Shown here piece after piece: positions 1-51,881 of a stretch of 64,000 bases of DNA (position 1 is its first letter; every line of letters starts with the position of its first letter). The stretch spans positions 1 to 64,000 of the forward strand of contig WION01000058.1 in assembly GCA_015039365.1 (NCBI GenBank). The letters are read 5' to 3'. The notes beneath the pieces are model-generated. The model saw only the letters and a list, made by a program, of their open reading frames with translations. It was not told the origin of the DNA and ran no database searches. This DNA is from Amanita rubescens (taxonomy: Eukaryota; Basidiomycota; Agaricomycetes; Agaricales; Amanitaceae). Position numbers and translations under genes: made by a program.

Positions 1-499
1 TCTTCAGTCCTGAGGATGGCCAGTAATGACGACAGAGTGGGTCCAGAATTGGCGGGGGATTCGGAGGATAAGGTCCCGGATGTCGACTGAGGTGGGGACA
101 TGGTCGTAGGATGGAGAACGTTTAGCGCTCAAGCAAGATCTTGCATTGATGATGAGTAATCGCATCGATTCTGGATGGTACGCATTGTAGCATTTGCGCC
201 GGTGATACGACTAGAGGCGGAATGGCACGTGACCGCGCGTCGGGCCACTCGCATTCCCCCGGCGGAGCTCGCTAAAGTAAAGGATAAAAGGCCAAGAGAA
301 GTGGAAGGAAAAATATGTCCACTGGATTCCCGCCCTACACCTTGAAGGGGGGAGCGGCGAATGCTAAACCAGCCTTTGGGGTAACCCCAGCGCATGATGA
401 GGTGTTTGATAAGAGTCTGCGAGGCTCAATACACGATAATGCAATTCAACATATATTCAGTACAAGGGTCGTAATACAGTAAACTAGTCCATGGCGCTA
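1..499. other. intergenic, no gene seen
   Basis: I see no coding region here. Positions 395-485 form the 3' flank of gene A1. They closely match 9755-9850 downstream of A2 (shared block beginning gcgcatgatgaggtgtttga), so the duplicated unit extends past the stop codons. Confidence 0.6.
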
Positions 500-3039: not shown

Positions 3040-3479
3040 ATTTCGCGAGATGTGTTGTGGGACGCAACTAGAGCAGAATCCCGTTTAAATCATATTGCGA
3101 TGTGCTTGTCGTATTTTCAATCCGAGATTCTCACATCTCGGTCTCACGAAATCCATCCCCACATAGGGAAAAGCACGGATGGGGCCTTCCAAAGCGAAGA
3201 ATTTGATCGGGTTTCAGCGGCCTTCTATTTCAGATCGCGACTTCCTTCGAAAATATCAAGGCAAAATTAAAATACAGGCAGGGACTATATGGAGTCTGCT
3301 ACTTACAAGGAAGCCTCACGGCATGGTTGAGTTAATGGCGGCCAAGGCCGCTGTTGATCTCGTCGTGCTAAACACATCTCGGAATATTCAACAGACAGGA
3401 TCACCCAGTCTGTCAGGGATATGAGATGTCGGAGTTGCAGATCAGGTGTCAAATGGGAGTTTGTGGATCTGATATCAGA

Positions 3480-3930
3480 TAAGTTCAGAAAACTGCTCGC
3501 AAGGTGAAGAGACGCACAATAAGAGTATAGGATGAGAACGCATGGATAGAGTACGCTCATACAACGGTCGGCCGAAGGCCAGATGTGGAAAGAAACAACG
3601 GGTCATGTTCCAGGGTCTGGTTAACGTCACTCTGGGAAGGTGGTAGGGACGAGAACGCATAGAGCGGGCCAAACGCGGAAAGCGACAACGGCCGATGTTC
3701 CAGGGTTTGATTGACGTTAATTGGGAAGGTGCTCAGGATGAGAACAGGTTTGGTTAAATAGCGTTCATCTGAAAAGGTGCTTGGAATGAGAACGCATAGA
3801 TGGAACAGGCCAGATGTGGAAAACAACAACGGCAGACGTTCCATCTAATCTTGGAAGGTGTTCGGGATGAGAACGCCAGGCCAGATAACAACGGCAGACG
3901 TTCTAGAGTTTGGCTAACATTACTCTGGGA
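3480..3930. repeat. satellite in the A1 upstream region
   Basis: Degenerate tandem copies of an ~88 bp unit with the recurring words caacaacggcagacgttcca, ctgggaaggtgctcgggatgag and aacgcatagat. The core word recurs near 3594, 3683, 3823 and 3886. The same unit occurs at 13.0-13.65 kb and 19.47-19.83 kb, each time on the 5' side of an A gene. Confidence 0.8.
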
Positions 3931-9740: not shown

Positions 9741-9872
9741 ATGAAAAGCTTCATGGCGCATGATGAGGTGTTTGATAAGAGTCTGCGAGGCTCAATGCAA
9801 TTCAACATATATTCAGGACAAGGGTCGCAATACAGCTATTTAGCTAATAACTAGTCCTTGGTACTTTAACAA

Positions 9873-12385
9873 CTACTTCGAGACCGTATCGATGTATTCT
9901 TTCACATTAGTCTCGACCACTCCCCATTGGTAAATAACTTGTGGTTTTACGTTCTCGAAAATAATTGGACCAGTCGGACCGTTCATGACCTGATAGAACG
10001 CGTCCAATGTCGTGAGGGCGGTGGCAATGTCCGACCAGATTTGAGACACTTTAGAAAGATCCTGACCAATTTCTTCCATGGGCGGCAAAAGACTGTAATC
10101 GAACATGTCAGTATAATGCCCGTATCCCGTAGGCATTAAGTGCTTACGCCTCAAGCTTGAATTTGGTATTCTCAGCGATCTGGACGCTTTTCTTCAGTTC
10201 ATTGATCGCCACAGTCATCTAAAAGAGCTATAAGCATCGACGAATCGATGTATTTGGTCTAATCTAACCTTGCCAGCTGCGATAGCTTGCTCCACAGCCA
10301 TCGCACCAATAGAACCTACGAGTATTGGTTAGTTATTAGCTCAAGCTCGGTTTCGCTAGACGTGTACCTGCGACACCTAGGGCCGCCAACATACCGACCC
10401 CAGGAATGAAGACAGCGGCAGTGAAGGCAATGAAGACACCGAAGAAACCAAGGATTGCATTCATTATCATTGACTTTTGCTGCTCGGTAAAGTCGGCAAT
10501 GCTTTTCTGGAATGTAGCAATATTTTGGTCACACTCGTTAATCTTCATCTTCACGAGGTTGATTGCATTGTCCCAGTCGTTCTTCACCTGGGTGCTATTA
10601 CGTAGATCGTACGTGAGAAGATCTCAGACCATAACGCGAGGTTACTCACGATCGCTCTGAGAGCGCGGTAGCGGCCACGAGATATGTTGACACCAAGGGT
10701 GTGTTAGTATCGAGGAAGACAGACAGTTTAATGTCTCCAGCCCCAACGTTGGCTTGGTCGTCGCGCTTCACGAACGGCAAAAGTGTCTGCTGAAGTACGG
10801 AGTATGCTAGGAGATCTCGTGCGACCGGCAACGTATCTAGTTGCAGCTCGAGGTACTTCTCGCGATAGTAGTTCATCACGACATATAAATTCGAATCGGA
10901 GCCATCGATCGGACTTGTACACTTGATCTGGTCGAGGTATGCCGTCTGAAGGAGATCCTAGAAGAGATAATGGAATAAAGGTGTGTTCTGTGATCGTGAA
11001 TATTCAATGCTCACGTTGAACTTATCAATGATTTTTCCAGTGCTGTCAGCCAGTTCCTCAAGTTTCTCCTGAGTATCTGAGGGCGGGCTGTAAAACCAGG
11101 ATTCAGCACTGAAAAATAAATGATAAAAACAGTTAAAATACCCGATCACTGCCTCGATAATTTGTTCATCATTGTTCAACTTCCTGTTAAGTACTTAGAC
11201 AACCATGACAAATACAGACACCCAACAGTACTCACTGGGAAACGGCCTTTCTAGACCTCAATTTTGTATCCGCAACCATTTTGTGGAGACGAATCTCATG
11301 TTTAGTGATGGGAACTTTCGGGTTTGCGTTGAATTGGGCAGATCTAATCGCGTGCATTGATCGAGCGCTTCGAATTGGTTGCGTAAGAGCGTCGGCGTAT
11401 TCTTTGGCATCAGCGGCCACTTTCGCCCAAGCGCTCTTGATTTCTTCATATATGGCCGGAGGAACCATGTCCGTCACTTCCTTGACAGCGTCCTGGCGGT
11501 CAGCAACGTCATCCCAAGCGTTAAGCAGACGTTGGGAATTCGTGATGACGACTGTAAGGCCTTCACTAAGAGCAATGAATTTAGTCTTGAGCGAGCTGAG
11601 CTGGGAGCGGAGGGCTCGGAGGCCGCTCAAGATCTGCTGTAGACGAAGCTGATCTTCGAATAAAGTCTTAAAGGATCCGTGTATGGTGCTGACTGCGACG
11701 CCGAGAAGGGCTGCGATTTGGACATCAGATTCTTCTGCAGTCGAGGCAAGATTGTAAAGGGACTGTCATTTACGAAATAAACAAATTGTCGATTATAACT
11801 TCGGTGGGCTCACCTTGAGCACTTCCCATAGAGTAGCAATGATGTTCTTCTGAGCAAGAGCTTCACTTTGTGCCTCAATTTGCGAGTCCAGTTCTCGAAG
11901 TTTTATCTCAAGTTCTGCGATGCGTTTATTGATATCTTCGACGTATTCAGTAAACTATGCGATAATTCTTCAGCGAAGGAAAGCGTGATTAAAATAGTGC
12001 CAACCTCAGAGAAGAATTGTTGATTGGACTCAGAATCCGCCCTAGCCTGGTCCGCGTAGCCCTTTGCAACAGGTTGCATCGTCGCTACAAAGAGATCGAC
12101 TGAGAGAAAATCCAAGACACTGCTGAGCACTGCGTCATAACTGATAACCTTTCTTGCAAGATCAACATTGATGTTGGTCAAGTCGGAGAGTCGACCGTTA
12201 CCGCTAGCAACTAGAGTGAACAAGTTGGTGTGATCCGAGTCATCGCCAACGGATATAGTGTCGAGGTTGGGGAAAACTAGCAGTTCGTGAAGTGCCTTGC
12301 GAGCAGCCAGGTAGTCCGGAGCAAAACTGCTCAAAGAGCCGAGCAGGGTACCAGGACCAAGAGCTTCGAAGAGATGAGACGGCAT
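9873..12385 (-). CDS. protein A2, paralogue of A1 (alpha-PFT-like, inferred)
   Basis: Nine exons splice into 696 codons plus stop: 12385-12005, 11954-11814, 11762-11236, 11183-11015, 10957-10650, 10594-10368, 10315-10269, 10218-10148 and 10092-9873. All exon-length differences from A1 keep frame. Exon 6 repeats the charged helix plus hydrophobic stretch (FFGVFIAFTAAVF, then GVGMLAALG). Positions 12385 and below read MPSHLFEALGPGTLLGSL. This is the only A gene that still faces a complete B gene (B1, start 14189), across ~1.8 kb of shared upstream DNA. It looks intact. The pore-forming role is inference from shape, not from a recognised domain hit. Confidence 0.8.
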
Positions 12386-12424
12386 ATTTCGCAAGATGTG
12401 TTGTGGGGCGCAACTAGACCAGAC

Positions 12425-12445
12425 GCCTCTTGTTTAAATAGGGTA
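12425..12445 (-). promoter_or_regulatory. TATA-like box of A2
   Basis: The minus strand reads ctatttaaacaag about 45 nt before the A2 start. Comparable boxes stand before A1 (3081-3095) and A3 (19455-19465). The downstream leader words ctagttgc and cacaacacat are conserved in all three. Confidence 0.45.
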
Positions 12446-12999
12446 TTTTCAATCTGAGATTATGATATCTCGGTCTCACGGAATCCATCCCCTGGCAGGC
12501 ATTGAGAAAAAGACGAACGGCGTCTTCCAAAGCGAAGAACTTGATCGGGTTTCTGGCGGCGTTCTATTTCAGGTCGCGACTTCCTTCGAAAAGATCAAGG
12601 CAAGGTTTAATGACAGACAGGGAGTATATGCAGTCCGTGCTACTTACAAGGAGGCCTCACACGACATGGGTAAAACCTGTTTTAAAGTTAACAGTGGCGG
12701 CCAAGGCCGCTGTTGGTGTCATTATGCTAGACGCATCTCCTCAGAATATTCAACAGACAGTATCTCCCAGCCCGTCGGCGATATCTCCAAACATAGACTC
12801 CCTGACCGGTGTGGTTGGACATTCGAAAGTGTGGTGAAGCATTGAATGACGTGGTTATTGAGAAAAGCGATGTCATAAGCGGAACCCTGCTGAATGAGAG
12901 ATCAACATTGAAAAGTCATTTATTTTACGGAGATTAGAGGTGTCAAACGGCAGTTTGTAAATCTGACATCAGATAAGTTCAGAAAACTGCTCGTAACCG

Positions 13000-13650
13000 C
13001 TGGTGGTACGCACAATAAGAGTGTATGATGAGAACGCATAGACAGAGCAGACCACTGATGTGGAAAGCAACAACGGCCGACGTTCCAGGGTTCGGTTAAA
13101 ATTAATCTGAGAAGATGTTTGAACGAGAACACATAGATGGAGCAGGCTTGGAAAGCAACAACGGCAGACATTCCAGGGTTTTGTTAACATTGCTCTGGGA
13201 AGGCGGTCGGGATAAGAACGGGTTTGGTTATACATTAATCTGGGATGGCGTTCGGGATGGGAACGCATAGAGCAGGCTAGATGTGGAAAGCAACAACGGC
13301 AGACGTTCCACGACTTGGTTAACATTAATTTGAGAAGGTGTTTGGGATGAGATGGAGCGGGCTAGATTTGGGAAGCAACAATCGCCGATGTTCCACAAGG
13401 CTGGATGTGGAAAGCAACAACGGCAGACGTTCCACGATTTGGTTAACATTAACTGAGAAGGTGTTTGGGGTGAGAATACATGGATAGAGATGTAGAAAGT
13501 AACAACGGCAAACGTTCCACGGTTTGGTTAATATTAATCTGAGAAGGTGTTTGGGTTGAGATAGAACAGGCTAGACTCGGATGCGGAAAGCAACAACGGC
13601 AGACGTTCTACTTCTAGAGTTTGGCTAACATTACTATGGGAAGATGCTCA
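13000..13650. repeat. satellite between A2 and B1
   Basis: About seven degenerate units, mostly 84-91 bp apart, with core caacaacggcagacgttcca near 13069, 13157, 13291, 13375, 13415, 13501 and 13592. Linker words are ttggttaacattaatctgagaaggtgtttggg and gagaacgcatagatagagcaggc (the latter in variants). It occupies the middle of the bidirectional intergenic region. Confidence 0.85.
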
Positions 13651-14130
13651 CCCACAGGGAACCGGAATGCGGATTGGCGGCAGAGGTCCGTTGAGCAAGT
13701 AGCTCAAACAATTAGAATTGAAGCTTGACAGTAGGATAACTGACGCGTCGACCGTTGGAGATCATCGATCATGAAGGAGTAGAGGCAAATGAAAAGCACA
13801 GCAGAGAATGAAGTGTTTTATTTTTAGAGCGCCGACAGTCGCGGCCCCGCATTACAGTGATCGTGGCGCACTTCTCGCTAAACTTAGCTTTCAGGAGGCA
13901 TAACACGCTCTCCGTTTCTGACCATAATTGCGACGGTGTCAATAGCAAACCTAACTTTATTCCAAATGGGAGGTTCATTACGGTGAGTATCGTGGTTGCA
14001 CTATAAAGCTGTGACACGCAAAGTTCCATAGACTGCATCGGATGCACGCAAGGAAAAGTAATCTTTAAAAAATCCTGAAGGAACGATAAATCCGTAATGT
14101 GACCCCGTCCGTGCGAGGCAGGATCGTATC

Positions 14131-14140
14131 ATAAAAGGGC
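14131..14140 (+). promoter_or_regulatory. TATA box of B1
   Basis: ataaaagggc lies 58 nt before the B1 start codon. It sits in a block (gggcccagt, then cagactatgttccacccatc) that is nearly identical before B2. Confidence 0.6.
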
Positions 14141-14188
14141 CCAGTTGCAGACTATGTTCCACCCATCGTGATTCGTCTCCTCACTGAA

Positions 14189-17100
14189 ATGGCTACTTTC
14201 GATTACTCCTCCTTCCTTCCTGGCAATCTCGATTCTGCCTTGCAAGCATTGACCAACGTTTACAAGAGTAACAAAGATCGCCTCACCGATGCATTTTTTC
14301 AGACTCCCTTACCAGGGGTCCACACGTCGGCACGTACGTTTCCAATCAATACAATGCTTCATACTGATCCAGCCTCTTTCCCTAGCGGACATCATCGGTG
14401 CGAAAGACCTAGGCTTCAAAGTTGCCTTGCGCTCCGTGCCTTCTGTTCGTGATGTGGTAGCATATACTCAACTTATTGCCACTTTCGTTCCTGTGATCAC
14501 GGACCACGATACCCTTGTCACCATCTTATTGCCCAATGCTTCTTCATGGAAGATCTTGGAGACATCTGACCTCTCTGACATAAACGAGGTCCGTCACCCT
14601 ATCCAGGCTCAAAACAGCGCTTATTTTTCCATCAGGAATATAGGCGAAAGTTTATTGATTACCTACCTATTTTAGATCCGATGATCGACGGTTTGAACAA
14701 TTTCCTGACAGAACTGAAGAACATCGACAAGGCACACCCTCCTCCTTGGTTCAAGCAGACGTTATTTGATACCCTTATTCCCATTCTGTCCTTCGCAAGC
14801 TTCCGTCCCGGCATTCAAGGCCAATCTATATTAGCGGGTATTCTTGGATTATCTCTTACCATGGTGAACACACCGCTGAACAAGGTCCTTTTCCCGTTCT
14901 TCCCTCTCCCTCCCAACCCGAAGGTTGTGATCGCAGAAGCCGTTCAGAAAAACTGTGTTGACGCCATCACAAAATACGGACAGCTCATTCGTGATCTCAT
15001 CCCCCTTTTTGAACCGTTCCAAGCTGCCTGCATTACCGTTTCACAAGAACAAGTCGCCGTTGCTCCGCGCATCAGGGATAATGCTCCCGGACCAGAGCCA
15101 AGCACCGCCGACCAGTGCATTGTAGCCTGGAACGACGTTAAGAATTCCGGAAATGGTTTCATCAACTACGTTGCCGGAGGTTCCTCTGCTAACGCAGCGT
15201 CGACCGAGAAGTCCTTTCGTTTGAAACCGCTTGCTGCGCAAGCGGATCCAATATCTCCGGAAGACGTCACCAAAGCTTTCGGACCTCCGTCGTATGCGTC
15301 TACGACGCTCCCGGAAATGAGCGCTACGACAGGCCAGATTGTTGCTAATTTCAACAAAATCCTGACGCAACCTTTTATTGAGCAAGTATAATATCTCCTT
15401 GTATGTTAATCTAATCCATTTGCTAGCCAATTGAAGGTTACTGACAAGAATGGCGACGAGACCGCTATCTCTACTGTTATGCTAACATGCAAGAAGAAGT
15501 ATGAAACACTTCAAGGCGTCACCGTCGACATTGTGAGGGGGCTAGATGCGTACGCGCTACTGCAAAAGGTATTAACAGTCTATACCTTGCGTATCTTTTC
15601 TAACCCAATCTTTCGACAGCTTGCCTTTCCTGCAGTTGATAAACCGGAAGGATTGACACTACAAGATTTCTTGAATACTAACCTTCCGCTTGTTATGGTT
15701 CGTTGATTATTGGTCTTTTCAAGGAACCAGATCAATTTCCCCCCCCCCTAGAAATACGGAAAAGATGCGAAGAAAATAGCAGCCGACACACAAGCGCTAT
15801 TGGTTGTTTTTGAAGGATGGTTAGATGTTTTTAGTAAAAATCTTGAAGAAGTGAGTGACCCCTCGCGTTACGGGAGTGTAATTGAAATATTATCTACCAG
15901 ATCAACAAATCCGTCGCCGATAAACAAGTGGCTCTCGACGACGCTCAAAGAGAATACGATTCGGCCAAAGCGAGCGGTATCATAGAAGAGATACTTGGAG
16001 TTGTCTTTACCGCTATTGCGATTGCTTCATTGGTTGCTGGTCAAGGAGAGCTCGCCGTTGCGATGGGTGTTGAACCGGGGCAAAACTTTATTGAGATGAT
16101 TCGCGATGCGGTTGCCGCAGGGAAACTTGCCATGTATGTATTCACATGCCGCCACCATTCTACCTATGCTGATGCATTTTACTCTACAGCGTCATGGGCC
16201 ACCTCAAGAATGTCATAGCGACATCAGAGAGAACTCGCGATCAGTTGAAGGTGGTCATCCCACTGTTCACCACCATCATCGACCTTATGGGCATCATCCA
16301 CGTTGTATGGGAAACAATTACGGGAGACCTCAACATTGTTAAGGAGAATTACGAGTTGTGGTGAGTAAATAGACTGCATACTGATTGTGATTTCACAAAT
16401 GGGCATAATAGGAACAACCCACGGTATTTCACTGCAGCATCGCTCAACGCTGCTCTAGACGACTGGGAAGGCGTCATCGCACAGTGCGAGAAATATATCT
16501 CGATTGTGGCCGGTGGCAACTCTTCAGTCACGAAAGAATTCAAAGCCATAGCGCAACAGCAACCGCAAACGAAACCGTTGCAACTGAACGCACCATCACC
16601 GGCAAATGAGGAGCTACCTCCACCATACGAAGTTGCCGTCCTTCCCGGTCACCACGCCATCCTTGGTCAGGAGATAAGCATAAAAGACCGTGTAGGAATG
16701 TTCAAGGCCTTAGCGCAATCCGACGACGTCAATCGGCTAATCGCGGCGTTTTCTCCTGCCGTCGTTGTCATCGGAGTGAATCGGTCTCAGCTCACTAATA
16801 TTGCCAACGGTTATCAATGGATAGCAAACAACATCAGGTATCGTCGCCTCTCAATAATTGCAAGATCTCGGTTAACATGATGTTTAAAGGGACTTGTACA
16901 GCGATTCTGCATACGAAGCAGAAATCCTTGTCATTACTATCAATACACGTTTGATTCCATCTTTGAACACAGCTATCGAGTTTTACATCAAGTTCGCGGC
17001 AGGCGAGCAGGACCCGTTCTCCGGCGGTACATCGGAGGAGGCCATGGAGGCCTTTATTCGTGAACGCTCGGCTCAGCTAAACCAGGGAACTGAACTTGCA

Positions 17101-19830: not shown

Positions 19831-20212
19831 TCTGCTCGCCACAGGGAACCAGAATGCGGATTGCAGAGGTCAGTTGAGCGACTAGCTCGAACAATTAGAT
19901 TTAAAGCTTGACATGTCGACAGAGATCGTAAAGGAATGAAAAGCGCGGTGGAGCCTTGCTTTATTTTTAGAGCGCGCTAAACTTAGCTTTCACGTGTCCA
20001 CAGCAATACGCCGTGTTGTTTCAGAAATCATAGCTCTCACATTACGCGAACGCAATAGATGGAGTGGCGCTTGTTACAGTCTTGAGGTGAGTATCGTGAT
20101 CGCACTACAAAGGGTTTCACGTCTGACACGCGAGATGTAATAGATTGGATGCACGAAAACCATGAAGTAACGCTCAATCCGTAATGCGAGGCAAGATCGT
20201 ATCTGCATGCAG

Positions 20213-20220
20213 TATAAAAG
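20213..20220 (+). promoter_or_regulatory. TATA box of B2
   Basis: tataaaag, 37 nt before the B2 start, in a block almost identical to the B1 promoter. The truncated copy may still be transcribed. Confidence 0.6.
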
Positions 20221-20256
20221 GGCCCAGTCGCAGACTATGTTCCACCCATCACTGAA

Positions 20257-21342
20257 ATGGCTACCTTCGATTATTCCTCCTTCCTTCCAGGCAATCTCGA
20301 TCCTGCCTTGCAAGAATTGACCAACGTTTACAAGAATAACACGGATCGCCTCACCAATGCATTTTTCCAGACTCCCTTACCAGGTGTCCACACGTCGGCA
20401 CGTACGTATCCAATCAATATGGTGCTTCACACTGATCCAATTTCTTTCCCTAGCGGACATCACCGGTGCGAAAGACCTAGGCTTCAAAGTTGCCTTGCGC
20501 TCTGTGCCTTCTGTTCGTGATGTGGTAGCATATACTCAACTTATTGCCACTTTCATTCCTGTGATTACGGATCACGATACCCTTGTCGCCATCTTATTGC
20601 CCAATGCTTCTTCATGGAAGATCTTGGAGACATCTGACCTCTCTGACATAAACGAGGTCCGTCACCCTACCCAGACTCAAAACAGCGCTTATTTTTCCAT
20701 CAGGAATATAGGCAAAAGTTTAATGATTACCTGCCTATTTTAGATCCGATGGTCGACGGTTTGAACAATTTCCTCACAGAACTGAAGAACATCGACAAGG
20801 AAAACCCTCCTGCTTGGTTCAAGCAGACCTTATTCGATACCCTCACTCCCATTCTGTCCTTCGCAAGCTTCCGTCCTGGCGTTGAAGGCCAATCTATATT
20901 AGCGGGTATTCTTGGATTATCTATTAGCATGGTGAACACACCGCTGAACGAGATCCTTTTCCCGCTCTTCCCTCTCTCTCCCGACCCGAAGGTTGTGATC
21001 GCAGAAGCCGTTCAGACAAACTGTGTTGACGCCATCACAAAATACGAGGAGCTCATTCGTGATCTCATCCCCCTTTTTGAACCGTTCCAAGCTGCCTGCA
21101 TTACCGTTTCAGAAGAGCAAGTCGCCGTTGCTCCGCGCATTAAGGATAATGCTCCCGGACCCGAGCCAACCACTGCTGACCAGTGCATTCTCGCCTGGGA
21201 TGATGTTAAGAATGCCGGAAATGGTTTCATCAACTACGTCGCCGGAGGTTCCTCTGCTAACGCGGCGTCGACCGAAACGTCGAAATCGCCTGCTGCGCAA
21301 GCGGAGCCAATATCTCCGGGAGACGTCACCAAAGCCTTCTGA
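20257..21342 (+). pseudogene. B2, truncated B copy keeping an open N-terminal third
   Basis: Exons 20257-20401, 20454-20660 and 20744-21342 match B1 exons 1-3 and remain open for 316 codons. At the word accaaagccttc the sequence jumps to the B1 3' end (ggttggtaaaggtgcgcttcgtagtg), and the junction happens to create a TGA. The equivalent of about 15280-17740 of B1 is gone, including every hydrophobic segment. The retained part could be translated as a short soluble protein, but it cannot be a full B protein. Confidence 0.85.
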
Positions 21343-21497
21343 CCTGGTTGGTAAAGGTGCGCTTCGTAGTGAAACAGTTGGAATTGCCATGTTACCCTGA
21401 ATATGTACTTTTGATGTCATGGCTTGTGAATGAAAAAAATGATTCCGAAAGTGGTTCTGAACCTTGAGGTCGACGTGCTGTTGGTGCTACTAATTCG

Positions 21498-28372: not shown

Positions 28373-28425
28373 TAAAGTCAAGTTGAGATGAGTAAAAAAA
28401 ATCTTCAAGTGACCAGCACGATCAG
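28373..28425 (-). pseudogene. relic leader and start of a micro-exon-family gene
   Basis: The minus strand carries cgtgctggtcacttga (28420-28405), and 31 nt later an ATG at 28373 opening MVRISLNAMAG, then a stop after a few more codons. The motif and spacing match the three micro-exon genes at 47.3-51.9 kb, which begin MVK or MIK. Nothing of the rest of the gene follows. The left half of the hairpin is disrupted. Confidence 0.5.
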
Positions 28426-34780: not shown

Positions 34781-35540
34781 ATAGTCTAAACGGCAGCCCA
34801 TAGAATTATGGACCACCGCCATTTTTTTTAAACAGTAGCGCGAAAAGAAACAATCGAAGAGTGTCCATGTCAAACGAGATTCATGTTATCCGTATCACGT
34901 TTCTTCCCGGCTTTCTTTGCCAAGGTCTTGGCCTGTTTGACGGGGGATGCCGGTGCCGTGCTACTAAAGGCAGAGGACATGGACGACTGCGAAAGGAATG
35001 GTGAGCAAAAGCAGGTGAACTAGACAAGATGTCCTTACCGCTGCATTATTTTGTACATCAGCGACAGGCATGACAGTGGCAAAAGCTCTTAAGCAATCAT
35101 TGTCGCTGTTGGATTCTTCGTTACTAGTGTAGTCGTTGATCGAGACACATATAGAACGACGATTGATCGGTTCCTCCGCATGCATGATTACTTTGACTAT
35201 GTCGGCGTAAATCTGATAGATCTGAGAGGGATCAATGGTCGTCAGGTCATCGGAAACGGAATAAGTACCTTTTTCTGTGTGTAACTTTGAGGAATAGAAT
35301 ATGTACGCAACGAGATCCTCATTAGGGTGTTTCAAACATGCCCAACTCGACCCTCAACTTGGACCACAACTCGACCCCAACTCGATCCCAATTTGACCAG
35401 AGTTGGGGCTGAAGTTGGGGTCTCATGTTTGAATGCGAATTTTTGTCAATTTTGTGTAGACCTCAATGCCGCCCCAACTTCACTAACCGAATAGTAGAGT
35501 ACACATAATTTAGTACCGTAAATTTTACTTCCAAGTTTTG

Positions 35541-37066
35541 ATGCCCACTGTCTCTGAACGCCAAACATTCCTCCAAGAAATTCTACATGCTACGAATGAA
35601 GAGATATCTTACTTCTCAAGGATAGCCCTCGACAGAGAATCCGTTGAAGATCCAGACAACTCATGGCTATCCGATTCATCACAGTCTGAGTCCGAGTCAT
35701 CTTCATCCTCTTCTAGCTCTTCTAGCTCTTCTAGCTCCTCTAGCTCTTCGTCATCTGGCTTGGATGTACTCATGTCAGTAGACGGTGCAGACACGGATGA
35801 AGAGCACACCATTGCCATGGGTACGGCTACTGACCTATTGCAGTTAATTGCAGAGACACGCGTTCTCAACCCCCACCTAGTCGCCAAGTGTTCTCAACTG
35901 GATTTAGTCCTTATTAACTTCAAGTTTGATGATCCAAAACGTTTTCGACACAATCTACGAGTTTCACCAAGCACATTTGACAGCCTGTTGGAAATGATAA
36001 ACATGCACCCAATTTTTGTGAATATTTCAAATGTCTCACAGGGTCCAGTAATTGAGCAACTGGCGGTTGCGATGTTTCGGTTTGGCCATGACGGAAATGC
36101 AGCTTCTGTTGAAGCAGTTGCACAGTGGGCAGGGATCAGTGCTGGTAGTGTTGTAAATTACACATGCAGAGTAATGATTGCATTTCTTGCACTTCATGAC
36201 TCTGCCATCCGTTGGCCTTCGGAAGATGAGAAGGAACAGTCGAAGCAGTGGGTGGAGGTAGCCTCGTGCTATGCATGGGGAGATGGTTACTGCATGGTCG
36301 ATGGAACACTTGTTGTTTTGTTTCAGAAGCCAGGGTATCATGGTGAGGCATATTTCGATAGGAAGAGCAACTACTCCTTGAATCTCCAGGTAAACTTACT
36401 GTATTTTATTTTCATTAGTATCCGCCGTGACTGATTTGTACAGCTTGTTACCCTGCCAAATCTCCGCATAATCGACTATGTACTTGGGCATTGTGGAAGT
36501 GCGCATGATTCAACCGTCTTTCACGATTCGAGAACATATCAGAACAGCAGTACTTTGTTCAACGAAAATGAATGGATGTGGGCCGACTCAGCATACGCGC
36601 TGGACAGCTGGTGTATTACACCGTACAAGAAGCCCCACACCACAGTAGCTGAAAACAAAGCATTCAATTATCATCTATCCCGGGTATGTTAACCATCACT
36701 ACAGTTCCCAGAGATCTTCTCATCGTTGGATAGGTCCGTGTCAAGTCTGAGCATGCAATGGGATATCTCAAAGGTCGGTTTAGCTCCCTCAGAGGGCTAC
36801 GTCAGCAGATCGATGACGCAACTGACCACAAGCGTGCCTTGGCATGGGTGAAAACCTGTGTCATCATCCATACACTCATCAGTTTCATCGAAGAAGGAGA
36901 TGAAGATGGAGAGTTCATCACTGAATTAGTGCGAGAAGGGACAGATGCACCTGGTGGTGTTATACTTGAAGCAAACAGTGAACCATCAGACACGCAGCGG
37001 GAGACACAGGGACAGAGGAAACGCACTGAGCTCAAGAGGATGTTATTCGAGAGCCTATATGTATGA
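35541..37066 (+). CDS. Harbinger DDE transposase (DDE_Tnp_4 type)
   Basis: Catalyses excision and insertion of the element. Exon 1 runs 35541-36390, then LVTLPNLRIIDYVLGHCGSA (about 36444-36684), then the last exon to 37066. The catalytic triad is recognisable: D in YCMVDGTLV, D in WMWADSAYALDSW, and E in SEHAMGYLKGRFSSLRGLRQ. A helix-turn-helix-like region (VAQWAGISAGSVVNYTCRVM) precedes it. The N-terminus has a run of about 20 serines encoded by alternating tct and agc codons. No stop or frameshift was seen, so it may still be functional. Confidence 0.88.
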
Positions 37067-37286: not shown

Positions 37287-40200
37287 CTACATAGTACTAT
37301 GATAATCTTGCCAGGCCACTCCAACGTCAGAAGCGTCGCCATCAGGGACATGGTAGTGGTCCTCAGAAGTCACATGGTTATTGTCAACGAAGTTCAAGTT
37401 GTCGCTAAAACCACTGAAGTAGGATAGACCCGACATGCCACTGCTCGGAGTAGACACCTCTTCAAGGGGGTTAGATGGCATTTGAGATGACGAGGAATGT
37501 GCAGAGCTTCCTCGGTTCAGTTCTGCTAGCCTTATCTGAAGACGGAGAATCTCGATTTGCTTGTCCTCTTTAGTCTGAGTCGCCGCTACTGTAGAACTTG
37601 GTGTCTGAGGGGATGATCCATATCGGAGTTCATACTTGTGCTTCTTGAGACGAATTGATGCCATTTTCTCGTCGTGTTCCATCTTCCGCTTCAGACCAAG
37701 GCGGCGGGTCTCTTCTTGGCGGCTATCATTAAACCGGTCAACAGCTGTTTTCCTCGCTGAGGCTGGCTTTCCACGTCGAGTGGCCACAGCTTTTTGTCTG
37801 ATTAGGTGGGCGGGAGCTGCATGACGGGGTTGGGTGCATGGTGGTGGAGAGAGGGAAGCAGCGTGTTGAGATTTTGGAGTGGATGGTGCTGGGGAGAGCG
37901 AAACAGCATGTTGTCCAGTCCGAAGTGGCGGGGTTGCATTCCACTGAATTTGTATTAGTAGAATGCTTCCTTTGACAAAAGAAGACACCTTACCAGTATC
38001 GCGTCCTCATTTCCCTCGTCAACCAGTGATCCTTCCCTAGAACCATACGCATCTACATCCGGCTCGTCTCCACCCCCTTCACTATCTGCACTGGCTTGGT
38101 CTTCATCCCCTGAAGCAGCAAAAAGGGCAGCTGCATCTGAAGCGTGCATTGTCCCGGGTTTTGATGATTGTACACCCTGGGGATTGTAGTTGGGCAGTTC
38201 ACGCCAGAATGCATGAAGATCGTCCCACCATGGCCACTCACTGCGGATACCAGCTGTGTGACAAGTCTTAGTTTAATCCGTGTAGCAATGAAGTTGATAA
38301 GCACCAATGACGTTCGCAATTGAGCTTCCTTTGGTGATGGTCAGAGGATCAAGTCCCGCACCAGTGCTTCCGAGCATCTTTAGATGAGCCACATACTCAG
38401 TTTTGAGGCTTGAACAACATGTTAGCTTGCAAAAATCCTTGTGTGATAAAAGATTGTACCGTCGAAGCCGGGTTTCTACTGCCGTACCAAACCTGCCAGG
38501 GTTTTGGAGGTAGAGCGCACTTTGACCGGGCTCAGTGGCAAAGATATGCTTTGCAAGAACAGCTAGTGTTGTTGGGGCTCGGCTAAGCTCGGCTTCGGCT
38601 CAGCTTAGTCACCGGAGCCGATTTTTCGGCTCAGCTCGGCTCCCAGAGCCAGCTATAGCCGGCTCTGGCTATGGTTTTCAAGCAACCGATGCCCTACCCC
38701 AGGTAAATGCCTCCTCAGGCATTGTAGGCATTTTGGAACCTTTGCTTCGCATATCCCTTGCCTCAGGAAGGTTGGAGAGTGCTGGCTGCATGACTGGAAG
38801 CCAGGGTAGGGTCTGGGCACAAGGTGAGTAAAGATTTGATCATATCTCAGCCATTTCTTGACGGATTCCCTTCAATATAGGATCATCTGAAAGCTCTTTC
38901 CAAGCTTATTCTCGACGTCTTAACCGTTTGGCACCGCACGCACTTGATTCCGCCCGTTAAGGCAGAGCTGAGTCACACCATATGTTTTCTTTCATCATAT
39001 CTCCCCCATTTCCCGACGCTTTTGCTTCGATCTTGGACCATTTAGAAGCGATTTTGGCCCTCTTTCTCGTCGCATTGACCGCTTGATGCGGCGCGCTTTC
39101 GTTCTTTCGCTATTCATCAATCTTTCCTTCAAAACAATTTTTATCATATCCCATCTGTTTCTCAATGGTTTTACTTCAATCCTGCACCATTTAGAAGTGC
39201 TTTTCACTCTATTTCTCGACGCAGTGACCGCTTTATGCTCTGCAAATTCATTGTCTCATTATTCACAAATCTGTATACTCAGTACTGGTTTTTCCTCATG
39301 TAGGTCCAGTTTTGCATGTAATTCTATCAAATTCACATAGATTAAAGTTATTTCCATTGGCATTTCAAGCTATGAGTGGACTGTGATAAAATAGGCTAGG
39401 TATCATTATGTCTCATTACTGTAATTACCCATCCTGGCCAAAAGTGCTTGCAATGCATTAAGTTGCCTATGTGTTGAGAAAATGCTTCTGAATGCGACAT
39501 AATTGGAGTGAAACTGACCATAAATGAGTGAGATATGACCCCACAAGCATGTAAAATACAATTTGAATGAAATATTGATGAATAGCGAAAGAACGAAAGC
39601 GCGCCGCATCAAGCGGTCAATGCGACGAGAAAGAGGGCCAAAATTGCTTCTAAATGGTCCAAGATCGAAGCAAAAGCGTCGGGAAATGGGGGAGATATGA
39701 TAAAAGAAAACATATGGTGTGACTCAGCTCTGCCTTAACGGGCGGAATCAAGTGCGCGCGGTGCCAAACGGTTAAGACGTCGAGAATAAGCTTGGAAAGA
39801 GCTTTCAGATGATCCTATATTGAAGGGAATCCGTCAAGAAATGGCTGAGATATGATCAAATCTTTACTTACCTTGTTCCCAGACCTTACCCATGCAGCCA
39901 CTACTCCCCAACCCTCTTGATGCAAGTAATGAGCAAAACAAAGCATCCTAAATGCTTAAGTGATGCAGGGGGGCTTTACTAGAGGCAGGGGGTTTACCTG
40001 TGGATCAGTACTGGGATGCCGGCTACAGCTGGCTAGAGCCGGCTGTAGCTGGCTTTGAAAATTCAGCTCCAGCTCAGCTCCCGATTGGCTCAGCTCAACT
40101 GGCTTGCAGCTTGAAGCCGAGCCGGCAACAACACTAAGAACAGCATACTGCTGGACTTTGCCTTCCTTCGCTGTATGCTTTGCACGGCCTTCTTTGGCTG

Positions 40201-47332: not shown

Positions 47333-48523
47333 CTATCTTGTTCCTAAACTATCCCAATTGCGGTTTTCAAAGTCATAAAAAGACCTTGCGCGTACTTTTG
47401 CTGGCTGGTGTTCAGGATCCCGAGACCTTTCAAGAAATATTAGCTTAAATTTTTACACCTCGCGTAATACTACACCGCACCGGTCGTCATCCGAGGGCCG
47501 AAGAAGAGTTCTGGAGGATCTTTAATGAAATATCAGTTTGAACTGTCTAAATATTAGGATGCTGAAACATACCCAGCGCTAGTACCCGGATGACTCGAAT
47601 ATAAATAACTTGCAGTAACAAGGGATCTTTAAAAAGATATTAGTTTCGATTTTAACACCCAAGATATTTTCCGCCGTACGATGCATCGCCACTTTTTTCA
47701 TCAGCCCAAGTAATTGATCTTCGCGGAAAATTGGTTTCAATTGCCTAACGATCTGGAAAATGTTTCACAGTACCTCTGGGGACGACTTTCAACGAATGTT
47801 AGTTTCAATCGCCAAACGCCTAGGAAATTTCCAACGTACATGAGGTGCAGTTTGGTATCGCTGGAAGGTCCGGAGGGTGATTCGCCCGGGTAGTACCTGT
47901 GGCCGGGCCCCCGAAGATTGGGGGAGCTGGCAGCAGTTCTTTCAAGATATTAGGTTCAATCGGTTAAAAGTTTGGGTTAGATTCCGGCATACCGAGGAGG
48001 AGGACGCTGGGGACGGGGATTACTGGCAGTAGGTCTTTCATGGAATATTAGTTTGGACACACTTGGTGACGTTACAACATACCTTTGATTTCTGCTGGGC
48101 TGCGACTTCACAACTTGTGGATGCGTCCCCTGCTGAGGATGGTTGTGGGCCTCGTGTTCATTTGGTTGATTGCCAGCTTCAAGGTCGCATTCTTCTTTGG
48201 TCCTTGATTTCACGCATAGTCCGCATGCCCGTACGCAACAGTAGCCCCAAACGGGGATGGTGGCTAAGAGCCCTACTGTCAAAGCAGTACTGTCTAAGCG
48301 TTTGCAAAGTTCACTGCAAACTGTCAAGTCATTTTGGGTGTAAATTCTAGCTGACCGCGAATCTCACCGGTCCCTCCGGTCCCTGGCTCAGACAATGGCA
48401 AATAAGCACCTCGATTTTCACTCAGGGAATAATGAAGATGCTCACCCAATGGGAAGGCCGACAGAAGGTTGAACCAACAAAGCAAGTTGAATAAACACAA
48501 GATACGTGGTGGGTTTTACCATA
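47333..48523 (-). CDS. micro-exon family protein G1 (membrane protein with exon-encoded repeats)
   Basis: Exon 1 is 48523-48446. Exon 2 (about 48313-48083) encodes a membrane segment (STALTVGLLATIPVWGYCCV) and a charged stretch. Then come tiny exons: 48034-47993 (42 nt), 47938-47897 (42), a 21-nt exon near 47860, 47785-47774 (12), 47718-47680 (39), 47626-47573 (54), 47519-47481 (39) and 47426-47333. Every exon from the second on is bounded in phase 2. The two 42-nt exons encode the related 14-mers RPTASNPRPQRPPP and RTAASSPNLRGPGH. The introns share a ctaatat branch element. Compared with its relatives, exon 1 carries one extra T in a run at about 48480, which puts the signal peptide out of frame. 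The copy may therefore be inactive, or the base may be an assembly error. Confidence 0.6.
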
Positions 48524-48544
48524 ATTGTGTGGACGAAAAAGATT

Positions 48545-48566
48545 CTCAAGTGACCAGCACGTTGAG
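48545..48566 (-). promoter_or_regulatory. 5'-leader hairpin motif of G1
   Basis: On the sense strand: CTCAACGTGCTGGTCACTTGAG. CTCAA pairs with TTGAG and GTG with CAC around the loop CTGGT, with one bulged C. It lies 22 nt before the start codon. The identical 22-mer precedes G2 and G3. Confidence 0.65.
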
Positions 48567-48569
48567 TGC

Positions 48570-49820
48570 ACTGCGCTGAAGGATCAGAGAACTTTCAAGG
48601 AATTTATATGCCCAAGAGATCCAAAAATTGGCAAAATTTGCTCATTATAGATAGCCCCATAACTAGAGGCCATTACGCGGAAACCGGAATAACAGATCAT
48701 GTCGGGAGCGAGGCATTGTCACGGGGTTAAGGCTGTTCTCAGCGGCGGCCTTACTCGCGACCAGCATATAGACTAGGGTTGCAGCTTGTCTGGAGTGAGA
48801 AGCACGAATCCGAGTCCATGGGATGGGATTCAATCTAGCTGACTTTGTGAATCTGTGATGTAAAGAGATGAGCGCTTGAGCAACCGCGCGCATCACGGAG
48901 TCACGCTGTTTCACCAATCCGTTGCTAATTCCCTCACACAGCGCCTCCGGTCGGACCGGACCCCGTCACGTTCCTTCTTATTGAACTCAGTATGCATCAG
49001 AGGACTTGAGGTAAATTAAGTAGATGGAGATGTCCTAACAGGGCCGCGTTATCAAATATATATTAACCAATTGCCAGTTTACCTCTCAAGATATTAACGT
49101 TGAATCCAAGGATTCGGACGCCGCGTCCTCCATCATTAAAGAAATGACGAAACGCGTCTCTCGTTTCTAGATCGACTCCAGTAACCTTTAAACGCAAGCA
49201 ACGATGGCGATCTCCGCATGGCCGCGGTGAGAATATCCTGGGCTAAAATAATGTACAAAATAAGTAGTATTTGCTGGCAACGGACTCACGACGAGTTAGC
49301 AACGCCTGCATCTGCGGGATCTCGAATGGTCTACTACTTACCATGGACAAACTTAAGCCGAGGCATGAAGTGAGGATGGCATCAACACAGTGGGTACGGA
49401 TCCGATAGCGGCCTTAGGACACCACGCCTGGGCTAATGGATGGCTGACATACCTAGGCTCTAGCAGCGGTTACGAAAGCAACTTCTTGGAAATGGCTTCC
49501 GAGTTTTTCAGGCTAAGATAGCGTTGAAGTATAGGTATGTAAATCGGCTTTCGCGTTGTCGATAACTCACGAGCTGGTGAATGTGGATGTGACGCATAGT
49601 ACCTGATGGTGTCCCTGCAAGCCAACGTTTATGCCAGTAGTGGTACATCATGTGCTAGTAGGAGGCGCATTACTTAACTACCATCGAAAAGCTGGTGAGT
49701 CGCAATTTTACCGCTCTGTTGCACGGCACCTCGTGGTTCGTGCAAAACGATACGTCACTACGTGTAAGAGGTGCTTCGCCTAACTACCATCGTGAAGTGG
49801 CAGCTGAGCAAATTTTGCCG
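48570..49820. other. spacer between G1 and G2
   Basis: No gene is supported. A degenerate repeat, ttaactaccatcgaaaagctg / cctaactaccatcgtgaagtgg, each followed by gcaattttaccgc or gcaaattttgccgc, lies at about 49673-49715 and 49780-49822. The latter runs into a TATA-like box (tgtataaatt, 49825) for G2. One intron-like relic (ctcaagatattaacgttgaatcc) lies near 49085. Confidence 0.45.
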
Positions 49821-49869
49821 CATTGTATAAATTCTGTCAACTGACTCTTCGGAGCCTCAGCACAGTACA

Positions 49870-49891
49870 CTCAACGTGCTGGTCACTTGAG
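49870..49891 (+). promoter_or_regulatory. 5'-leader hairpin motif of G2
   Basis: CTCAACGTGCTGGTCACTTGAG on the plus strand, ending about 31 nt before the G2 start codon and ~45 nt after a TATA-like box. It is identical to the G1 and G3 copies. Confidence 0.65.
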
Positions 49892-49921
49892 GATACCGTT
49901 CGCCCATCTCAATTCGACACC

Positions 49922-50483
49922 ATGATTAAGCTCACCGTTTCTGTTTCTCTGGTGCTCCTTCAACTTTCCCTATTATCTCGAACTTCTGTTGGCGTCCCCG
50001 TCCCTCCGATTGGCCCAGACTATCCCATTATTAACCCGCAACCTGAGATTCCTTCCGCGCCTCTTACCGGGTGAGTATATGCGGGCATTCTTACCCAAGA
50101 TAAATCGATAATTTTGCAGGACGGTTCTGAACGTGGCCACAGGCATGGTATGCGTGCCCGTTGCCTTAGGTGCAGTGCAACTTGGAAAGAACCTTGTGGG
50201 GCACTGCCTGAATAAATTTCGGACTAAGGATACGAGAGCCGATCCCGAGAGCGGTTCTAATCCGGGGTGTGTTGTAAAGCATTATCAATGTGTCGAGACT
50301 TATGTTCCCTGGCAGGTCAACCTCCAGTGCTCACGATCCCAACGGGAATCGCCACAGGTACAATTGGTTGGATTTTCAAATGTGTTAAGCAGTCGAAGCT
50401 CATTTCCCTCTAGCGAGACGCCAGATGAAAACGCCCCCCTTATCAGGTACGATGATGCATCACACAATGTGATAAGCGATTGA
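49922..50483 (+). CDS. micro-exon family protein G2 (135 residues, signal peptide and one membrane segment)
   Basis: Four exons, 49922-50070, 50120-50266, 50316-50357 and 50414-50483, give 408 nt in one frame. The start MIKLTVSVSLVLLQLSLLSR is a signal peptide ending near SVG, followed by a proline-rich segment (VPVPPIGPDYPIINPQPEIP). Exon 2 carries the membrane segment (NVATGMVCVPVALGAVQLG) and a charged stretch (FRTKDTRADPESG). Exon 3 is exactly 42 nt, phase 2-2, encoding GSTSSAHDPNGNRH, which resembles the 14-mers of G1. The last exon reads through what is a 33-nt exon plus intron start in its relatives and stops. It appears intact. The function is unknown. Confidence 0.7.
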
Positions 50484-50519
50484 CATGGTGGCTTCAACGG
50501 CCTTCTGCCGATATTGCCC

Positions 50520-51000
50520 ATCCTCCGGGATCGAGGTACGGAAATGTATTTTTCAGAGAATTAGGCAGTTGGGACTAACATTATTCATTGAAAGGGATAC
50601 TAATCATCATGGGTACGATTAGTGCTATTTCTCAAGGTTAGGTGATTGACACAGTTCCTTCAAAGACATGCTGCCAGTGCTACACATTCTCAGAGAGGTG
50701 CGGCGGAGAGTTTGCCAGGACAGCTGAGACTAATATGATCCATTTTTTCAGAGAATTAGGCGGTTGGGACTAATGCTATTTCTTGAAAGAAATACTAATC
50801 TTCACGAGTACGTTTCTTAAGGTTAAGCGATTGATACAATTATTTCAGTACCCTTGCGGTCACTATCACTCTTAAATTAGTCGTACACCCTCAACGCACT
50901 ACGTTACAGCTCAACAACTGATAGCAGCTTCACCCCAACCTCTGAGAACCTACAGAAAGTGCGGTTAAACAACTATTTGAATAGTTTGGGTACTCGAACG
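50520..51000 (+). repeat. degenerate micro-exon/intron copies downstream of G2
   Basis: tttttcagagaattaggcagttgggactaacattattcattgaaag (50550-50596) and a near copy at 50747-50790 are each followed by gatactaatc or aatactaatctt and a gtacg donor-like word. They look like duplicated intron and micro-exon units that are no longer part of an open frame. Confidence 0.5.
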
Positions 51001-51009
51001 AACCTCTGG

Positions 51010-51842
51010 CTAGCGGGGACCGTTGGGCCCATTGCGAATGTGTGCGGGCGGAAGGCGCGCCGGTAATCCTTGAACGAGAGTCTCGTCAGATCTTTAAGGG
51101 GGGATATTAGTTTCAACCAGAATGTTCGAAGGTCTATGACTGACCCAGTAGACGATGGTGGTCTGTTTGTCCCAATAGATGGTGGTCTGTTCGTCCCAAT
51201 AGTGCTGGCATCACCACTTTATAAATGCGATATTAGTTTCAACTATAACAACCCGACGAGGTAATGATCGCACTCTCTTTGGCTCCATCCCAGTTCCCGT
51301 GAGGGAGTACGGCTAGGCAAAAAAGTTTAGTTGCCTAACGGGCTAGAAAATTTGGCGGTACCTGACAGGGTAATTTCGAAAAGAAAAAAAATACCATTAG
51401 ACTTAACACTGCCTTATTCCTGGAGAAAATTTCCGACATACAGGTTATGCAGTTGGATCCTGGAAGGTCCATTAGTCTCGATTGCTTCAAATTTAGATAA
51501 TGTACCCTTGGTTTTCTACGTCCCGGTGCCGGGTCCGTGGAAAGCACGCGTGTGCCACCATGTCACAGGCCACATAGACGACAGCCGCTCCTACCGCAGC
51601 GCACGCGGCTATTCCAGTCCCATCAATCCCCCGCTTGCAGTGCCTGCAGCAAATCTATTCATTTCGCTATAGGTCAAAGCTAGCTATGAAGCTCACTTTT
51701 TGCTGTACCCAAATCGGTGTCTCAGTTTCAGTCAAGAATGAGAACGAAACGCTCACGGCGGAACGGGGAGGCCAAAAGAGATTTGAAATAGAAAAGAAAG
51801 TTGAAGGAGGACGAGAGAAGCGGCGATCGGGATTTTAACCAT
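51010..51842 (-). CDS. micro-exon family protein G3
   Basis: Exon 1 (51842-51757) encodes MVKIPIAASLVLLQLSFLFQ, then ISFGLPVPP, a signal peptide like that of G2. Exon 2 (51643-51506) holds the membrane segment (GIAACAAVGAAVVYVACDMV) and basic/acidic residues (RTRHRDVENQ). An 18-nt exon follows, then a 60-nt and a 72-nt exon. The latter has an internal duplication (GTNRPPSI / GTNRPPSS), and a final exon ends at 51010. All joins are phase 2-2. One join, between the 18-nt exon and the 60-nt exon (about 51370-51310), has two introns almost back to back, so an exon may be lost there. The family is unknown to me. Confidence 0.6.
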
Positions 51843-51859
51843 GAGTGAAAGATTTATCC

Positions 51860-51881
51860 TCAAGTGACCAGCACGTTGAGT
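51860..51881 (-). promoter_or_regulatory. 5'-leader hairpin motif of G3
   Basis: Sense strand CTCAACGTGCTGGTCACTTGAG, 17 nt before the start codon; identical to the G1 and G2 copies. Confidence 0.65.

Follow-up and report, generated by a model that had tools for sequence, protein, structure and literature searches.

Has a fungus built a gene family out of tiny exons that can be gained, lost or resized without disturbing the reading frame? Three neighbouring, related genes (G1, G2 and G3; Table 1) in the 64,000-nt stretch of Amanita rubescens DNA analysed here (the window) raise this question. An earlier note had placed them at 47333..51842, with a signal peptide, a membrane segment and a tail of micro-exons in each, and both outer coordinates proved exact, 47333 being the stop of G1 and 51842 the ATG of G3. 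Taken as a whole, G1-G3 are best explained, with a probability of roughly 0.8, as part of a fast-changing secretory-pathway family with a modular body of phase-2 micro-exons. At the start of each gene would stand a conserved head: a 5'-leader or promoter element, then the exon for the signal peptide and an intron in phase 2. In many members small exons bounded by phase 2 on both sides would follow as a modular body.

Table 1. Genes, exons and shared elements of the G1-G3 locus (window positions; exon lengths in nt in brackets)
Feature	Position	Strand	Basis or remark
G1 gene, ATG to stop, 10 exons	47333..48522	-	hand-built from splice signals and paralogs
G1 exons 1-5	48446-48522 (77), 48368-48382 (15), 48083-48313 (231), 47993-48034 (42), 47897-47938 (42)	-	
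G1 exons 6-10	47774-47785 (12), 47680-47718 (39), 47573-47626 (54), 47481-47519 (39), 47333-47426 (94, terminal)	-	
22-nt element of G1	48545..48566	-	starts 44 nt 5' of G1 ATG
22-nt element of G2	49870..49891	+	starts 52 nt 5' of G2 ATG
G2 gene (deposited F5887DRAFT_920346 = P0002)	49922..50921	+	hand-built; deposited model for alternative end
G2 exons 1-4	49922-50070 (149), 50120-50266 (147), 50316-50357 (42), 50414-50446 (33)	+	
G2 micro-exon (33) with [DE]xxxL[LI] motif (ENAPLI)	50414..50446	+	
G2 tandem cassettes (intron end plus 18-nt exon)	50549..50815	+	72-nt copies at 50549 and 50744, 83% identical
G2 tail, reading 1	50595-50612 (18), 50790-50807 (18), 50849-50921 (73, terminal)	+	hand-built
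G2 tail, reading 2	50752-50773 (22, terminal)	+	as deposited; yields deposited 130-aa protein
G3 gene, 7 exons	51010..51842	-	hand-built
G3 exons 1-4	51757-51842 (86), 51697-51702 (6, least certain), 51506-51643 (138), 51442-51459 (18)	-	
G3 exons 5-7	51274-51312 (39), 51145-51216 (72), 51010-51091 (82, terminal)	-	
22-nt element of G3	51859..51880	-	starts 38 nt 5' of G3 ATG

The shared head and the extent of the family

Just 5' of their start codons G1-G3 have in common a 22-nt element, CTCAACGTGCTGGTCACTTGAG, which occurs at 41 sites in the genome, against one for a reversed-pattern control. We read 38 of these sites, leaving out three on C366 that are copies of the window; 34 are followed by an open reading frame with a hydrophobic leader and the other four by one of 15 codons. 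A genome-wide search with the leader makes G1-G3 members of a larger family with many further genes. Among 15 leader clusters 14 are intact and the remaining one hits an early stop, and the reading frame of copy C190 is broken between its first two exons. The first exon common to the family is signal-peptide-like and ends in a phase-2 intron. Some leader-family members lack the micro-exon array. Database searches (E up to 1 or 10, one of them among the best 8000 candidates) returned no homolog labelled as coming from outside A. rubescens, so far the sole species in which the family has been found. The family is poor in conserved words, and homologs could escape such searches.

Signal peptides and membrane segments were called from a hydropathy window only. 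By this measure the tails of G1-G3 lie C-terminal to a second hydrophobic segment, which the P0004 protein, the product of the RNA-supported branch described below, does not have. For G1-G3 and their paralog P2, hydropathy weakly suggests a membrane-spanning segment before the tail; the P2 segment scores just 1.04, and in G3 the charge is higher before the segment (+3) than after it (+1). For the tails of G1-G3, behind the second segment, the secretion that had been proposed is doubtful. None of five proteins has a Pfam domain above cut-off; the match of G1 to PF07846 (18.2 bits, cut-off 27) is probably a Cys-rich chance match. Two haplotype contigs show 3 differences over 4510 bases at G1-G3 and none in an exon: one lies 5' of G1, and two are single-base indels that the hand-built models place in G2 introns.

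Splicing of the micro-exon arrays

The claim of a fungal micro-exon gene family with a conserved leader and duplicated exons gains support, for one member, from an RNA-derived sequence. The JGI protein P0004, from a 1217-bp contig, agrees with the spliced products of C514 and C650 in all 202 residues across 13 exons (83, 57, 48, 18, 63, 33, 57, 39, 42, 27, 27, 30 and 82 nt plus stop), and all 12 introns are in phase 2. The unspliced genes span 1276 nt, more than the contig's length, so the contig should derive from spliced RNA; read unspliced, they stop at codon 77. What would tie P0004 to A. rubescens is the 202/202 match alone. All 11 internal exons of C514 share one phase and average 40 nt, and an earlier prediction without phase constraint had 9 of the 11 exact. 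Judging by this match, the family probably has at least one member that is spliced as a single-phase micro-exon array. Micro-exons also appear, by eye, in three of the four NCBI models returned, P0003 being left out: P0001 (42, 33, 36 and 18 nt), P0002 (42 and 33) and P0005 (63, 33, 57, 39 and 42).

In our hand-built models every intron of G1 (9/9), G2 (6/6, reading 1) and G3 (6/6) is GT-AG and in phase 2, and across the family the tails consist of small exons of 12-72 nt whose introns, in models built the same way, can all be read as phase 2. A predictor free of phase constraint preferred other, mixed-phase chains over the all-phase-2 chain in G1 (39.8 vs 33.1), G2 (9.3 vs 6.8) and G3 (17.9 vs 15.8). 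A program constrained to phase 2 replaced the 42- and 12-nt exons of G1 by a single 99-nt exon, gave G2 only three exons, and gave G3 a different end and no 6-nt exon, a size below its exon minimum of 9. Since both disagree with the hand models, single exon borders in G1-G3 are uncertain. For P2, on the same contig, the best chain without phase constraint has nine exons with 8 of 8 introns in phase 2; under another weight matrix, a different chain draws level (35.8 vs 35.7).

Because unconstrained prediction gave mixed chains, exon symmetry was assessed by length from splice signals only, ignoring the reading frame, in 17 mutually related family genes out of 26 copies, nine close copies being left out. 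Sixty of 94 exons of at most 110 nt were divisible by three, whereas 60 shuffled sets averaged 0.36 and reached at most 0.58. A stricter splice-signal threshold gave 44 of 66 (shuffle mean 0.35; one shuffled set, with few exons, reached 0.80), and with a 70-nt limit the counts were 51/79 in the family and 194/555 elsewhere (400 random segments drawn from the rest of the window). The excess of such exons in the family exceeds chance. Tail exons with lengths divisible by three and phase 2-2 borders, as originally described, are found in the hand-built models and agree with the family-wide excess, but not with the chains chosen by the unconstrained predictor; of the listed lengths (12, 18, 21, 33, 39, 42, 42 and 42 nt) all were recovered but 21. 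The exons of 42 nt, a pair in G1 and one in G2, are related to one another, with 21-22 of 42 bases identical in all three pairs (shuffle p 0.0007-0.0016).

Duplication in the tails, and possible selection and decay

Intron-plus-exon cassettes are duplicated in C514 (exon 5 resembling 7, and 6 resembling 8), in P2 (again 5 and 7, 6 and 8) and in G2 (5 and 6), with a short duplication match between exons 4 and 5 of G1, and the family's tails grow in this way. The lengths of homologous micro-exons vary in multiples of three (18/21/30, 36/39/42, 27/33 and 48/57), and the 72-nt exon of G3 contains a 24-nt tandem duplication. Internal exons that are multiples of three with the same phase at both ends keep the frame, so that their duplication, loss or resizing, and in principle their skipping, would cause no frameshift. 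When single or paired cassettes are duplicated in tandem, the outcome would be repetitive, probably disordered tails rich in His, Pro and charge.

Such duplication copies phase automatically, and it is an even bet that it alone built the arrays as a non-adaptive by-product, with constitutive splicing and one product per gene. The sole RNA-derived sequence includes all exons, as this would predict, and dN/dS stays below one: positive selection on the mature part is unproven, with values of 0.30-0.93 in six of seven pairs, the seventh saturated and none above 1. On the other side, all 11 paralog comparisons (among six genes, and not independent of one another) show greater similarity in introns than in exons, which would fit selection on splicing, though homogenisation between copies could do likewise. 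The difference is partly due to splice signal. It persists, sometimes narrowly, in all five comparisons recomputed without donor and branch/acceptor parts (C101-C773: introns 0.813, exons 0.785).

In G2, the counterpart of one P2 exon has no AG acceptor and that of another measures 32 nt, which three does not divide; relative to this paralog the tail is uncertain and in part decayed. This loss of acceptor and frame, with a deposited model that ends shortly after the 33-nt exon, would suit G1-G3 tails that are decaying and largely unused, the exons of importance being no more than the first three or four. We find this improbable, as G1 and G3 keep phase-2 chains to the stop (in hand-built models) and homologous exons in a related subfamily keep multiples of three. 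In the same deposited model, but not in the paralog's predicted chain, the 33-nt exon is joined to an acceptor far away, and this, like the symmetry of the phase-2 micro-exons, could point to combinatorial skipping with many secreted variants per gene, as in schistosomes. That reading is less likely than not: deposited models may be prediction errors (P0005, on C113, and P0004, which is RNA-derived and belongs to a close copy, differ in how the 5' part is read), and the RNA-derived evidence, a single sequence, holds no isoforms.

If skipping did occur, protein destination could be affected. Motifs of the [DE]xxxL[LI] type are known as sorting signals, and the acidic di-leucine-like motif on the 33-nt micro-exon of G2 recurs in paralogs (ENTPLI, ENTALL and EKTPLL) and is absent from G1 and G3. 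In the G2/P2 branch, inclusion or omission of this exon could alter where the protein goes, and in the G1-G3/P2 branch the tail would follow a probably membrane-spanning segment. The C514 protein, though it lacks a membrane segment, contains the pattern as well (DDPGLI), which can thus arise without serving in sorting. The product of this RNA-supported branch would instead resemble a pre-pro-peptide that is secreted and carries KR (Kex2-type) sites. Secretion and the topology and disorder described above are inferred, as are a possible cell-surface or host-facing (effector-like) role and possible regulated skipping.

Parallels in animals and fungi

Schistosoma micro-exon genes (MEGs) form a lineage-specific family with a signal peptide and tandem symmetric micro-exons that make up most of the coding region, and their documented alternative splicing yields protein variants through exon skipping. 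The likeness proposed at the outset holds for the signal peptide, the lineage-specific distribution and the symmetric micro-exons (RNA-supported in C514, hand-built in G1-G3). The differences are documented alternative splicing, a feature of MEGs, the kingdom, and the second hydrophobic segment of G1-G3.

The aphid bicycle effector family appears nearer, and is the closest published parallel found. As described in PMC9168663, bicycle genes of Hormaphis cornu have numerous internal exons of unusually small size, nearly all of one phase, about 17 exons on average and a secretory signal; their sequence changes fast and gene structure more slowly, homologs without the CYC motif exist, and their owner lives on plants. 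Expression in the salivary gland and a role in the plant are further marks of the aphid genes. The C514 gene shares the small single-phase internal exons, the secretory signal and a plant-associated owner, and the fungal family shares rapid sequence change with slower structural change. C514 differs in having 13 exons and no CYC motif; the string is absent from all eight proteins searched (G1, G2, G3, P2, C101, C17, C773 and P0004). The published bicycle classifier (cut-off 0.72) scored C514 at 0.991, P2 at 0.352, G1 at 0.305 and C101 at 0.121 if the phase labels match, and all four at 0.0 under the other convention, where the base at which an exon starts is the second of its codon; if the paper uses 'phase 2' in that sense, the two families differ in phase.

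Within fungi, SP7-like effectors of arbuscular mycorrhizal fungi are likewise repeat proteins secreted by a symbiont of plants. A conserved intron precedes their first repeat; they belong to another phylum, and the available text mentions no micro-exon array (PMC11333574). Tiny exons themselves have been published, in the portions available to us, for Trichoderma Xlr2 (a very short exon with regulated inclusion; PMC11121469), Fusarium CYP621A (1 nt; PMC12940212) and Phlebia radiata, where very short exons are described as typical (PMC6540522). As far as described there, these are single exons in unrelated genes, whereas A. rubescens has whole arrays of one phase, in a secretory family that shares a leader; given P. 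radiata, a lone tiny exon is unremarkable in a basidiomycete, and the single-phase array is what is remarkable. No fungal gene family of single-phase micro-exon design was found in the literature searched, mostly by paper listings; the earlier note, too, knew of no fungal equivalent.

It is rather unlikely, in our view, that a symbiotic fungus independently invented the full schistosome and aphid strategy, with a coregulated family that shares a single conserved secretory head, regulated combinatorial inclusion of phase-2 micro-exons, including those with sorting motifs, and many surface or host-facing variants per locus. Single-phase micro-exon families have been reported in animals living on or in hosts, and finding the design in a fungus as well would independently indicate that it is favoured again and again where secretory proteins change fast. 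A fungal case would also offer another system for testing exon skipping. As P0001 and P0005 show, genes of this kind can be misread when fungal genomes are annotated automatically, and similar families may therefore hide in other mushrooms.

Phase and frame in the short exons of G1–G3

Each of the three neighbouring genes G1–G3 opens with an exon encoding MVK or MIK, then a hydrophobic stretch, then GLP or GVP, and in hand-built models a phase-2 reading of every intron gives a frame that reaches a stop in all three. The earlier note had proposed tails of phase-2 micro-exons; the frames agree with this, but a phase-blind predictor scores mixed-phase chains above all-phase-2 ones. Because the models are hand-built, mixed chains are preferred when phase is ignored, and a phase-2-constrained program disagrees with the models over some exons, single exon borders in G1–G3 are uncertain. 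The three genes recur almost unchanged on contig C366, with 3 differences over 4510 bases, as one would expect were two haplotypes present in the 75.7-Mb assembly.

A frame-free test, in which the best set of non-overlapping introns is chosen on splice signals alone, was applied to 17 family genes, which are not independent (26 copies originally, less 9 close copies). Of exons of at most 70 nt, 51 of 79 are divisible by three; in 400 segments taken at random from the remainder of the window the figure is 194 of 555. Exons this short occur at 4.65 per 1300 nt in the family and at 1.39 in the rest of the window. In the comparison with 60 shuffle sets (mean 0.36, maximum 0.58), which covers exons up to 110 nt long, the family has 60 multiples of three among 94, and at a stricter threshold 44 among 66 against a shuffle mean of 0.35, with one small shuffle set at 0.80.

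Features of the window and two loci elsewhere in the assembly (22-nt element: CTCAACGTGCTGGTCACTTGAG)
Feature	Position	Strand	Remarks
G1	47333–48522	-	element starts 44 nt before ATG
G2	49922–50921	+	between G1 and G3; element starts 52 nt before ATG
G3	51010–51842	-	element starts 38 nt before ATG
Element variant	28404–28425	-	followed by leader-like ORF stopping after 15 codons
Tandem paralogous stretches	390–3843 and 9756–13310		74–84% identical; long ORFs
Tandem paralogous stretches	14112–15286 and 20185–21345		90% identical; long ORFs
Transposase-like ORF	35514–36434	+	presumably PIF/Harbinger type
Second long ORF	37287–38006	-	near transposase-like ORF; could be its partner
L009	C526: 82960–84085		deposited as F5887DRAFT_984424
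L045	C157: 148700–153500		three tandem leader-family genes

A spliced relative and the extent of the family

A profile search recovered P0004, a 202-aa protein from a 1217-base JGI contig, which equals the spliced genes on contigs C514 and C650 at 202 of 202 residues across 13 exons. All 12 introns of this gene are GT-AG, 50–65 nt long and in phase 2, and all 11 internal exons (18–63 nt) are multiples of three. Since the unspliced gene spans 1276 nt from ATG to stop, more than the P0004 contig holds, that contig should derive from spliced RNA. What links this gene to G1–G3 is its leader and its 22-nt element (2 mismatches) rather than its tail, so P0004 supports the family design and is no proof of the exons of G1–G3. 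Copies of the C514-type gene (L031, L033, L026, L030, L027) show in-frame differences in modelled exons (48 vs 57 nt), and the tail of L027, on C320, is disrupted or changed.

The earlier note suggested a genome-wide search for micro-exon arrays beside the leader motif; a scan of the genome with the 22-nt element gave 41 sites at up to 3 mismatches (1 for the reversed pattern), and a leader protein search gave further loci, among them C774 with a modelled micro-exon array and some without a clear array. Three sites on C366 were left out as window copies; among the 38 read, a hydrophobic-leader ORF lies downstream at 34 and a 15-codon ORF at 4. The leaders fall into 15 clusters, of which one runs into an early stop. 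Contigs C101, C17, C190 and C773 hold a subfamily that has exons in common with G2 and with P2, a paralog of G2 on the same contig as G2 and modelled with nine exons; exon lengths run, in order, 122–139, 168 or 183, 39, 27, 36–42, 21–30 and 31 nt, in phase 2 throughout in three of the four copies, C190 being out of frame after exon 1. The element variant and short ORF in the window, with copies on C138, C300 and C366, are a probable family relic. At L045 the genes have LSKR or LFKR (Kex2-like) sites, two of the three have Gly-rich or Gln/Pro-rich tails, and the models lack a clear micro-exon array. The first six exons of the deposited model at L009 (P0001) follow the micro-exons; after them the frame shifts, and inspection by eye found no GT-AG junction that accounts for the shift.

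Gene change and comparison with known designs

Intron-plus-exon cassettes have been duplicated within genes: exons 5 and 6 match 7 and 8, respectively, in both C514 and P2, and exon 5 matches 6 in G2, while exons 4 and 5 of G1 share a short match only. Homologous exons differ in length by multiples of three. In every one of 11 comparisons among six genes, introns are more similar than exons (P2–G2: introns 133/152 vs exons 282/371 identical, p 0.003), and they remain so, sometimes narrowly, in all five comparisons recomputed with splice signals removed. For the signal peptide, dN/dS is 0–0.43 in six pairs, a seventh being unchanged; values of 0.30–0.93 for the mature part in 6 of 7 pairs indicate loose constraint and do not show positive selection there.

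Schistosoma micro-exon genes are similar in design, with exon skipping as their hallmark; for the Amanita family the likeness lies in exon structure, and exon skipping is a possibility. No fungal micro-exon family came up in searches of open-licence papers. Very short exons in themselves have been described as typical of Phlebia radiata genes (PMC6540522). The closest published design we found is the aphid bicycle family, which likewise combines many small exons in one phase, a secretory signal and a plant-associated owner (PMC9168663). The published bicycle classifier gives 0.991 for C514, 0.352 for P2, 0.305 for G1 and 0.121 for C101 if the phase label has the same meaning, and 0.0 for all four under the other convention. 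None of the eight family proteins checked contains the bicycle CYC string, and the resemblance is therefore one of design, not membership.

Predicted proteins and their sorting

Judged by hydropathy, family proteins probably enter the secretory pathway. A second hydrophobic segment has a mean hydropathy of 1.60–2.09 in G1, G2, G3, C101 and C773, and only 1.04 in P2; net charge after it is +1 to +3. Were the first segment a cleaved signal peptide and the second membrane-spanning, the tail would lie in the cytosol, a topology made tentative by G3, which carries +3 before the segment and +1 after it. KR sites of the kind present in secreted pre-pro-peptides occur in the C514 product, and its DDPGLI matches the di-leucine pattern, though the protein has no membrane segment. 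In G2, P2, C101 and C773, a micro-exon of 27–33 nt encodes ENAPLI, ENTPLI, ENTALL or EKTPLL, which fit the pattern of acidic di-leucine sorting signals; a search of the G1 and G3 proteins for such a motif found none. Skipping of this micro-exon may, we hypothesize, alter the sorting of the protein.
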